In this document: in pieces, positions 43,558-46,039 of the stretch
Position numbering within the stretch: position 1 is the stretch's first letter
How the letters are laid out: every line of letters starts with the position of its first letter
Assembly: GCF_000285275.1 (NCBI RefSeq)
Contig: NZ_CADO01000026.1
Span: 1-64,000, forward strand
DNA from: Acetobacter pasteurianus subsp. pasteurianus LMG 1262 = NBRC 106471
GTDB lineage: Bacteria > Pseudomonadota > Alphaproteobacteria > Acetobacterales > Acetobacteraceae
Reading direction: 5' to 3'
DNA: 64,000 nucleotides
Translations under genes and position numbers: made by a program
Notes under the pieces: generated by a model
Database searches by the model: none
What the model was told of the DNA's origin: nothing
The model's input: the letters and a program-made list of their open reading frames with translations, nothing else

Positions 43558-45675
43558 ATGTTTTCTTTTATATCACTTCACGGGCACATTCTGGCACATC
43601 GTGATTTCTACCTTACGGGAATTCCGGTTGCGCAAGCCGTTTCTCCGCAGTGGAACGTGGTTCAGCTGAATCCCGCAGGCAATAATCTGCAAGGGTTTGC
43701 AGATATTGCCGTAAGCGTTGTGGAAGATGGTGATAACAGAGGGCTGGTGACGCTGGGGGATGGCACAAACTTTTTGTGCGCCCATCCGGAAGGTGAACTG
43801 ACATGGATGCAGCATGTTCTCACGTGGGAATTGTTTGCACCGGTGTTGAGCCAGCATGTGCCTCTGCTTGTGCGTTTGGCGCAGGGCAAATGGCTTATTG
43901 CCGGACAACAGCAGGCTGAGCAGGTTTTGTTTTTAAACCACTCCCTCCAGCTTGGTGAGCATAAGTGGGACCTGCGCACCCTTTTCCTGCGTGAAAAAGG
44001 CGATGCCATTGTTGTTTCTGATGGGCGTGAGCAGGAAAGCGTGCTCCAGCCCAGCCCCGTGGCGGTGCAGAAAACCTTTATGGCAGCGCTATCTGCCCAG
44101 ATGAAGGCAATGGGGGATAGCCCGTTTGTGCAGGCCGCGCAGGCCGCCCGCCAACGTTTGCTTGTGGCCCCCGAAGATTCTGGCTGTTTGCTGGAGCTGG
44201 CAAAAGATTGCGCCAAGGTTGGGCAATTCGGCTTGGCGCGCACTGCGGTATTGTGCGCTGCGTTGCAGGATTTTCGGCCAGATTTATACTTCTTTTCCGC
44301 CATTCTGGCGTTGCGGGAAGGGGAGGCCCAGCAGGCCGCGGAATTGGCCAATCTGGCCCTGAAAGGCCGGTTTGGTGAGGCCCCCATACCCGAACAGCTC
44401 ACACATCTGGTGCAGCGGACAGCGCAGGGGGAGGCCGCGCTGCTTTTGCTGCCCGCTGCCTTGAAAGAGCTGCCGGATACAGAAGAGTTTGACCCCGCCT
44501 TTAATTTTTTGATGGTGCCTTTGCCGGCCTCTATGCTGAGGGCAGAAGATGTGCGGCAGGCCTATTCTTACCAGTTTGAGCAAGTGGCTTCTGCCTGCAC
44601 GCAGGAAGAACGGCTGCAACTGGCGCAGGCTGATCAGGCCCAGAACAGGGCGCAATACTGGAACCAGGTTGTGGCTGGCCATTACGCATGGCTCAATCAG
44701 GACCGCGCCAGCGCAGACCCGCATTATGTTACGGCCCGTAAGCTTTCCAGAGATTCCGGCATCAAGGCCATTGATTATAATTGCGGTGTTTATACATGGT
44801 TGCCGGAAGCCGCGGCATACAACCTGCATGAACAACAGGTAATAGACCAGTTGGGCATTGCGGGCTGGAACTGGCATTCCAGCGTAGCGCCTGATCGGAC
44901 CGAGGCTGATGCGCCAGATGCCTGTCTGGTTTTTGGGTGCGATAGTGCGTATTTCCGCTTTGTGCCCAAGCTTGTGATGTCTTTGATGCGGGCGTGTCAG
45001 GCGCAGCCGGAACACGGGCGTTTCCGCCTATGCTTGGGTGTGGATCGGCCCACGGATGAACAGTTGACCCTGATGCAGGATCTGGTGGCCTTTTTCTCGG
45101 AAAAAGACCGGGGGATGGATGTGTCCTTCACGCACGGGCAACTGAACCATGCGAACGAGGCCACCTATACCTGCATCCGCTACCTTATGCTGCCGCATAT
45201 TGTGGGCCAGTGGCACTGCCCGGTGCTGACAGCAGATTGCGATGGTTACTTCCCGCAGGATTTCCCGGCCTTGTGGCAGGAGCTCACATCCGGTTCGGAT
45301 TACGGGTTCCGGCTGTATGCGTACAACCATGAAGGCAAGCAGATAGCCGGAGAACCGTGGGGCTTTGGTGCGGGCCTGTCCTATTTTGGGGAAACGGAGC
45401 TTCTGCCGCAGATCGGGCGGTATCTGCACAATTATGTGCAGCGGACATACAGCCCGGAAAACCCAACCAACTGGTGTATTGACCAATGCGCGCTGGCACA
45501 GGCTTACGCGCGTTTTGTTGCACCGCGCTGGAATGACCTGCGGATACGCTTCATGGATGAAGGCACCCCTCTAATGGTGATGCCACACCATGTAGGCGGC
45601 AAAGATGCGCTGCTGGAACACGATGGCGCGGTTTCCGAGCAAGACCTGCGCCAGTTCATGCAGGATAACGCTTAA
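43558..45675 (+). CDS. Uncharacterised protein with GT-A glycosyltransferase-like C-terminal domain
   Basis: A 705-residue cytoplasmic protein. The N-terminal part (1-200) is a beta-rich unknown domain. Residues 200-340 are helical and TPR-like (LLELAKDCAKVGQFGLART). The C-terminal 280 residues look like a GT-A fold: VFGCDSAYFRFVPKLVMSLM, a DxD-type motif at 560-562 (LTADCDGYF), and WCIDQCALAQAYARF near the end, similar to GT8-like or related transferases. The acceptor and donor are unknown. No glycan-gene cluster surrounds it. It ends in a strong terminator, and a small unknown gene follows. Confidence 0.6.
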   Translation: MFSFISLHGHILAHRDFYLTGIPVAQAVSPQWNVVQLNPAGNNLQGFADIAVSVVEDGDNRGLVTLGDGTNFLCAHPEGELTWMQHVLTWELFAPVLSQHVPLLVRLAQGKWLIAGQQQAEQVLFLNHSLQLGEHKWDLRTLFLREKGDAIVVSDGREQESVLQPSPVAVQKTFMAALSAQMKAMGDSPFVQAAQAARQRLLVAPEDSGCLLELAKDCAKVGQFGLARTAVLCAALQDFRPDLYFFSAILALREGEAQQAAELANLALKGRFGEAPIPEQLTHLVQRTAQGEAALLLLPAALKELPDTEEFDPAFNFLMVPLPASMLRAEDVRQAYSYQFEQVASACTQEERLQLAQADQAQNRAQYWNQVVAGHYAWLNQDRASADPHYVTARKLSRDSGIKAIDYNCGVYTWLPEAAAYNLHEQQVIDQLGIAGWNWHSSVAPDRTEADAPDACLVFGCDSAYFRFVPKLVMSLMRACQAQPEHGRFRLCLGVDRPTDEQLTLMQDLVAFFSEKDRGMDVSFTHGQLNHANEATYTCIRYLMLPHIVGQWHCPVLTADCDGYFPQDFPALWQELTSGSDYGFRLYAYNHEGKQIAGEPWGFGAGLSYFGETELLPQIGRYLHNYVQRTYSPENPTNWCIDQCALAQAYARFVAPRWNDLRIRFMDEGTPLMVMPHHVGGKDALLEHDGAVSEQDLRQFMQDNA

Positions 45676-45689
45676 GAGTGTTTTGGCAA

Positions 45690-45721
45690 AAGCCGGTCAG
45701 TTTGGTCTGACCGGCTTTTTT
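45690..45721 (+). terminator. Strong terminator after the glycosyltransferase-like gene
   Basis: AAGCCGGTCAG (45690-45700) and CTGACCGGCTT (45707-45717) form a perfect 11-bp stem with a six-base loop, followed by Ts to 45721. Confidence 0.88.
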
Positions 45722-45754: not shown

Positions 45755-46039
45755 ATGACATATGCTGCATTTTACAAAGAAGAAGACGAGCAGCGTTTTC
45801 AGGATTGGCAAAGGGCGCATCCATCCGGGATTTTTATAAACTCAAGTCCGGGGCGTCTGAATCCAAAGTATATTGTGGCGCATCGGTCTGGGTGCATGTC
45901 TGTGCAGCAGCATAAAGGGCGGACAGTGGTTTATTCTAAGCACTGCTTTGATAGTCTGCACGAAGCTCAGGACTACTTACGTGCAGAATGTGGTGCAGCG
46001 CCTTCAACCGGTTGCAGCAGATGCAAGCCTGCAGGGTAG
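45755..46039 (+). CDS. Hypothetical protein with HP-G/F-N motif
   Basis: A 94-residue protein starting MTYAAFYKEEDEQRFQDW. The pattern W...HPSGIFINSS followed by PKYIVAHRSGC and C-x-S-L-H-E-A resembles the small N-terminal module seen in front of some restriction-type endonucleases, but no catalytic domain follows. Function unknown. GGGG precedes the ATG by about ten bases. It has four Cys (AHRSGC, SKHC, AECG and CSRC, the last supplying two). It lies between a strong terminator and tRNA-His. Confidence 0.5.
   Translation: MTYAAFYKEEDEQRFQDWQRAHPSGIFINSSPGRLNPKYIVAHRSGCMSVQQHKGRTVVYSKHCFDSLHEAQDYLRAECGAAPSTGCSRCKPAG

Follow-up and report, generated by a model that had tools for sequence, protein, structure and literature searches.

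What does the gene at positions 43558 to 45675 (+) encode, and are the parts of its product of a known kind? The window, i.e. the whole 64,000-nucleotide stretch of Acetobacter pasteurianus DNA analysed here, contains an uninterrupted open reading frame of 705 codons at this site, and the 705-residue protein proposed by an earlier sequence-only reading is therefore real. That reading described an orphan with a glycosyltransferase-like C-terminal third. An AlphaFold model of the full protein, built with alignment A1 (18 sequences, window protein included, the 17 others being 23-78% identical to it), reached a mean pLDDT of 92.7 and a pTM of 0.79 and consists of three parts. The features discussed below are the following.

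43558..45675, + strand: whole protein of subfamily A, with trefoil, TPR repeat and GT-A domain (reading frame, alignment, AlphaFold model)
43558..44061, + strand: N-module, residues 1-168, predicted beta-trefoil (about 1-99) plus beta appendage (own model)
43825..43836, + strand: WExF motif W90-E91-L92-F93, sole copy in the protein (motif scan, N-module alignment A2)
44062..44862, + strand: TPR-type helical repeat, residues 169-435 (helices of the model, profile matches to PDB TPR proteins)
44908..45630, + strand: predicted GT-A glycosyltransferase domain, residues 451-691 (Foldseek, VIA, profile comparison)
45235..45243, + strand: DxD motif D560-C561-D562 (alignment, motif scan)
45472..45492, + strand: WCIDQCA, residues 639-645 (aligns with the GT8 'DQD' in the profile alignment)
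45586..45603, + strand: HHVGGK, residues 677-682 (resembles by eye the GT8 motif HxxGxxKPW)
45688..45721, + strand: intrinsic terminator, a G-C-rich stem between an A run and a T run (hairpin folding)

The C-terminal domain and the helical repeat

Judged by the model, residues 451-691 form a GT-A glycosyltransferase domain that is distantly like GT8. Structural comparison with GT-A folds, which the sequence-only reading had proposed as a check, yielded a VIA Z of 12.9 over 194 aligned residues for BoGT6a (4ayl) and of about 12 for blood-group glycosyltransferases, UGGT and GlyE. All 50 listed VIA matches are glycosyltransferases with Z≥12.0, which we take to belong to GT-A; these rows span residues 451-691, and for the middle part of the protein the assignment draws on its helix pattern and on the sequence profile. 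The best Foldseek match was GlyE (E 1.3e-3, prob 1.00), followed by 3tzt, titled GT family 8; at or below E 0.001 Foldseek returned no match for the full model or the N-module model. The structural matches support the glycosyltransferase-like character ascribed to the C-terminal third.

In the model, the conserved DxD motif (D560, D562) follows the central strand (556-558). Both the DxD-type site and the GT-A-like segment noticed before are borne out, D560, D562 and W639-A645 being invariant in all 18 sequences of A1. A motif table of 47 rows contains DxD in 35; the other 12 are ten genes of subfamily B (see below), L021 (degenerate) and L063 (divergent). The sequence-only reading had held that a confident match to another kind of family, or loss of DxD in orthologues, would speak against it. 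As the C-terminal third is GT-A and DxD is retained, this does not apply to the aligned orthologues, although the motif is gone in one paralogous subfamily.

How close is this domain to GT8? Profile comparison by hhalign with eight Acetobacteraceae GT8 proteins (8 of 12 GT8 loci used) gave a probability of 82% and E 1.2e-6 over 249 columns, pairing DCD with DSD, FGAG with YFNAG and WCIDQCAL with LQDQDILN. Two controls run against the trefoil profile, which represents another fold class and not other Rossmann-like folds, gave 0.1%. Like GT8 proteins of the LgtC, GlyE and glycogenin type (PF01501), the window protein has a GT-A fold in the model, and GlyE and LgtC are among its top Foldseek matches; the matching order of DxD, NAG-like and DQ segments in the profile alignment may point to a distant relationship. 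Unlike them, it has WCIDQCA in place of DQDxxN and carries a trefoil and a TPR repeat in front. Since the Pfam GT8 family matched none of the 18 A1 sequences at E≤1, we term the domain GT8-like and not GT8. The window protein had no family match in Pfam or NCBIfam at E≤10, the glycosyltransferase profile had no meaningful match among PDB sequences, and a single-sequence PDB search returned mostly antibody chains and likewise no meaningful match.

The same glycosyltransferase domain occurs in other Acetobacteraceae proteins of TPR/GT-A type (L071-L077, L079-L083). Eight of these (L071-L077 and L079) were linked to the window profile by profile-profile comparison (prob 100, E 5.6e-43), and L080-L083 were found directly with the A1 profile. 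Several have TPR matches, and L075, L080 and L079 are fused to GT61, GT2 and GT32-type domains, respectively. They differ from the window protein in having no N-module match. The domain common to these proteins and the window protein is covered by no Pfam family.

The middle part consists of paired helices in the model (residues 169-435). The A1 profile matched PDB TPR proteins at profile positions 196-325, among them PA4667 with E 6.7e-6, and single-sequence Pfam TPR matches were absent or weak; by profile and structure this part belongs to the TPR superfamily. The first two thirds had been called beta-rich, TPR-like and unfamiliar. Model and profile agree with the first two terms, whereas the third does not hold, as the front resembles a CBM92/fascin-like trefoil in fold and motif.

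The N-terminal trefoil and its occurrence on other enzymes

Folded alone, the N-module gave a pLDDT of 93.4 and a pTM of 0.88. The model is a beta-trefoil, matching the designed trefoil 3o4d (VIA Z 10.3, 90 aa, rmsd 2.2), human fascin 3llp (Z 9.7) and the lectin SeviL (Z 9.6). Searching the PDB with the N-module profile yielded one noteworthy sequence, 7zoi_A (CpCBM92A; whole-sequence E 0.0041), whose three lobes were each matched around WExF, though weakly (per-lobe i-E 24 to 240). W90, E91 and F93 are invariant in all 14 rows of A2, and W90-F93 closes a lobe, starting before strand 92-97 and running into it. The window module therefore has in common with CBM92 and bacterial fascin-like modules the trefoil fold itself, a WExF located at a lobe's last strand and the three-lobe profile match.

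There are also differences. CBM92 modules typically have WExF in all three lobes, whereas each of the 14 modules in A2 contains exactly one. For CBM92 members an overall identity of at least 37% is given; the window module is linked to them by the profile match to 7zoi. The Fascin domain cut-off (PF06268) was not reached, the window protein being without any match; among the module-bearing proteins scanned, L146 alone had a Fascin match (16.6 bits versus a cut-off of 23.1, E 0.0089), and an FRG1 match of L067 (0.062) also lay under the cut-off.

According to the CBM92 paper, the Trp of WExF stacks on a glucosyl unit and the Glu hydrogen-bonds to the same unit, and some CBM92s are without Trp in one or more lobes (PMC11039641). 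It further describes its CBM92s as almost always occurring together with GH or PL domains, and the word 'glycosyltransferase' is absent from its main text (PMC11039641). By comparison with that description, the window module has one WExF instead of three, is probably intracellular, and sits on a glycosyltransferase rather than on a GH or PL. On the strength of motif and model, we read the front as a CBM92-like trefoil with a single, putatively sugar-binding site, and WExF might instead be structural.

The module is not confined to this protein family. A profile search detected it in 32 of 299 family genomes and in 2 of 385 class genomes, both of which belong to the family. There are 29 matches outside the own protein family, 28 from this search and one more from the search with the A1 profile; 22 of these proteins were examined, the other 7 being without a retrieved locus. 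Ten fall into one GT8 group, in which L145 and L153 exceed the Pfam cut-off and the rest are linked by blastp. Four are GT11-like, on weak matches (lowest E 0.012), GT90 is present in two (L068, L152), and one is DUF1796-type (L143, cut by the locus end) and related to L068. The remainder comprises two GT32-type proteins, one with GT61 and WcbI, one with WcbI alone and one without assigned type. WExF is kept in 20 of the 22, the exceptions being HETF in L152 and WEGM in L078, and in 32 of 35 distinct genes of the own family, where it is missing in L046, L028 and L056; in this count, the second fragments of two broken genes are excluded, L003 is own family, and L140 and the second L070 row are repeats. 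As far as these sequences tell, the front module is mobile within Acetobacteraceae.

Elsewhere, the CBM92/fascin-like trefoil serves for binding in secreted enzymes that degrade glycans. We tentatively propose that acetic acid bacteria may have turned it into an intracellular glycan-binding module of GT8, GT32, GT61 and GT90 enzymes, i.e. at least four Pfam-supported families, and that in one Acetobacter branch an enzyme of this type may have evolved into a conserved pseudo-glycosyltransferase. With its sugar-binding motif retained, the latter could sense the glycan made by the active copies or hold on to it. Carbohydrate-binding modules are mostly studied on glycan-breaking enzymes; the reuse proposed here, if true, would suggest that a separate module for binding the chain is needed in glycan synthesis as well. 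In addition, WExF combined with a glycosyltransferase would offer a sequence handle by which acetic acid bacteria could be searched for polysaccharide genes that are still unnamed.

Beta-trefoils and GT-A folds are both common. GalNAc-T (GT27) likewise combines a GT-A catalytic domain with a lectin-like ricin-type beta-trefoil; that trefoil is of another family and C-terminal, and the enzyme is found in the eukaryotic Golgi and has no TPR. Full-text searches of one open-access library, with hits judged by title and the opening of the abstract, showed no description of a WExF trefoil combined with TPR and GT-A. Given this result and the absence of a Pfam or NCBIfam match, the earlier suggestion that acetic acid bacteria have here a new glycosyltransferase architecture is upheld. 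Taken singly, the parts all belong to known kinds; what appears to be new is their combination and its reuse on enzymes of biosynthesis.

Relatives and a sister subfamily without catalytic residues

The protein is not an orphan as had been assumed. Its own genome harbors a second full-length copy on a different contig (G000:C137:67389-69455, 33% identity), and a single-sequence search matched 11 of 61 genomes (own and relatives), all within the genus, where they make up 11 of 37 genomes, the own one included. Scanning the genome collection revealed 17 relatives in Acetobacter, Gluconobacter, Saccharibacter, Asaia, Commensalibacter and one Rhodospirillales bin. With the A1 profile, 71 of 397 family genomes were matched, many in part only, and 16 of 385 genomes at class level, 13 of them outside the family and all 13 partial.

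The second copy in the own genome is one of the ten subfamily-B genes in the motif table, in which the invariant residues of the glycosyltransferase domain are lost together. The changes D562A, R585D, N638H, W639T and Q643R are accompanied by loss of K682; D581 is replaced by T (nine genes) or S (one), E599 by T (nine) or A (one), and C640 by D or A. All ten genes are open over about 700 codons, and nine retain WExF. In the midpoint-rooted tree, from which L063 was excluded as too divergent, they form one clade (support 100/100), which is joined by three motif-intact Acetobacter genes (G004, G008, G090; joint clade 100/99). A folD/MTHFR-like neighbourhood is common to four of the ten and to these three, namely those with wider flanks; the MTHFR match is under the Pfam cut-off, and the folD neighbour is a presumed one. 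Within the A. pasteurianus/pomorum group, dN/dS of subfamily B is 0.084-0.106 (10 pairs, 5 genomes), so that the five genes measured are under purifying selection. Such a pattern fits a pseudo-glycosyltransferase that has been maintained together with its glycan-binding-like motif. The paralogue retains module and scaffold while the catalytic residues are gone, and it would most likely act as a non-catalytic partner or regulator. As a naturally dead, conserved paralogue beside living homologues, it makes the role of a pseudo-glycosyltransferase directly testable, and this in a food-grade genus.

The window subfamily (A) is under purifying selection as well, with a dN/dS of 0.13-0.19 in the same group (6 pairs, 4 genomes, including the degenerate copy of G029) and of 0.13-0.16 among the three intact copies when G029 is left aside. 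When intact copies are compared domain by domain, the glycosyltransferase domain has the lowest ratio both times; against the degenerate G029 copy, the TPR part has it. The tree places the window copy beside those of Gluconobacter and Saccharibacter; the support of 84/92 is under the starred level, and Saccharibacter drew a long-branch warning. All four Gluconobacter loci listed have the gene flanked by typA- and dadA-like genes, which is a few genes away from where it sits in the window.

Counterparts of the window copy are broken in two genomes of the same group, G029 (by an insertion) and G228. In the latter (L090:8614-10732), a run of nine G close to codon 493 marks the loss of frame, and transposase-like reading frames interrupting genes were seen by eye nearby. 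Moreover, the gene is split over at least two frames, at differing places, in G342, G381, G362 and G208 (Asaia-type, genus g109) and in G008 (Acetobacter), and in G316 a remnant of a family gene with a stop is left. The splits in five genomes and this remnant suggest repeated loss or assembly errors. Given the breaks in G029 and G228 and the splits in G008 and several Asaia, the gene is dispensable in some lineages, or the assemblies are faulty. The data do not support general phase variation: the window gene contains no homopolymer of seven or more, no such run lies at the break in the three Asaia copies inspected (L014, L056, L058), and the break in G029 is an insertion.

Three Commensalibacter-type relatives (L018:7554-8741, L088:13416-14648, L081:5467-8355) are without the trefoil; a DUF4432 gene lies close to them or is joined to them in one frame (Pfam E 1e-104 for L018 and 6.2e-104 for L081; L088 judged by eye).

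Proposed function and genomic surroundings

We consider it reasonably probable that the window protein is a cytoplasmic, probably Mn2+-dependent GT-A glycosyltransferase, distantly related to GT8, whose trefoil would bind a glycan at a single site. By eye, no signal peptide was seen. The GT-A domain would bind a nucleotide sugar through D560/D562 and a metal, with the segment N638-W639..D642-Q643 placed near donor or acceptor, and would transfer the sugar to an acceptor. The trefoil would hold a glycan via W90-E91, most simply the glycosyl end of the acceptor or of the growing chain, and the TPR repeat may act as spacer or docking surface. As the same module is found on other polysaccharide-type enzymes, a pathway leading to surface polysaccharide, LPS or another glycan is likely.

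It is rather unlikely that the enzyme is an active GT-A glycosyltransferase whose trefoil serves solely in protein-protein contacts or folding, WExF being structural. The N-module has fascin among its best matches in structure, and eukaryotic fascin trefoils bind actin; the single WExF per module and the sub-cut-off Fascin and FRG1 matches point in the same direction. They are opposed by the carriers of the module, 20 of the 22 others being polysaccharide-type enzymes (four GT11-like ones resting on weak matches), and by the motif itself, which matches the CBM92 lobes whose Trp and Glu are described as binding sugar (PMC11039641). We regard a protein O-glycosyltransferase, with the TPR repeat selecting polypeptide acceptors as in OGT/SPINDLY, as improbable. 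A TPR scaffold does adjoin the glycosyltransferase domain, adjacent polysaccharide genes are absent, and Foldseek listed OGT and SPY among its matches. However, the rmsd of these matches is about 17-24, their TMq is 0.11-0.16, and polysaccharide-type enzymes carry the module too. The catalytic domains of OGT and SPY are GT-B; GT-B or OGT-like catalysis is rejected because the catalytic part of the window protein is GT-A. A decaying accessory gene without current role is highly improbable: the patchy distribution within the genus and the broken and split copies would fit, but the gene is intact in the window, and the low dN/dS among the three intact copies, lowest in the glycosyltransferase domain, argues against decay.

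The genomic surroundings of the proposed glycan-binding glycosyltransferase are in line with the earlier statement that it lies outside a polysaccharide cluster, which holds for the immediate vicinity: the neighbours are housekeeping-type genes. Upstream, on the minus strand, are what we take from their translations to be dadA-, FNR- and icd-like genes, the icd-like one being divergent to the window gene. Downstream, a 94-aa reading frame is followed by tRNA-His (-) and then by an aminotransferase (-) and glnB/K- and glnA-like genes of nitrogen metabolism, again presumed from their translations. The typA-, dadA-, FNR-, icd- and glnA-like neighbours are 94.8-100% identical to those flanking the A. 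pomorum copy (L003), which would place the window in the A. pasteurianus/pomorum group. Plasmid origin was rejected, as there was no plasmid match. A scan for sigma-70 promoters returned a single site on the opposite strand, a count below the shuffle mean. The gene also has its own terminator, as had been noted: the hairpin 3′ of the stop codon has a dG of -22.6 kcal/mol (z -4.0), and none of 200 shuffles was equally stable, although a simple consensus terminator scan missed it. The 94-aa frame directly downstream (45755-46039, +) had no Pfam match over the cut-off and no NCBIfam match; by eye, it is also present beside the A. pomorum copy.
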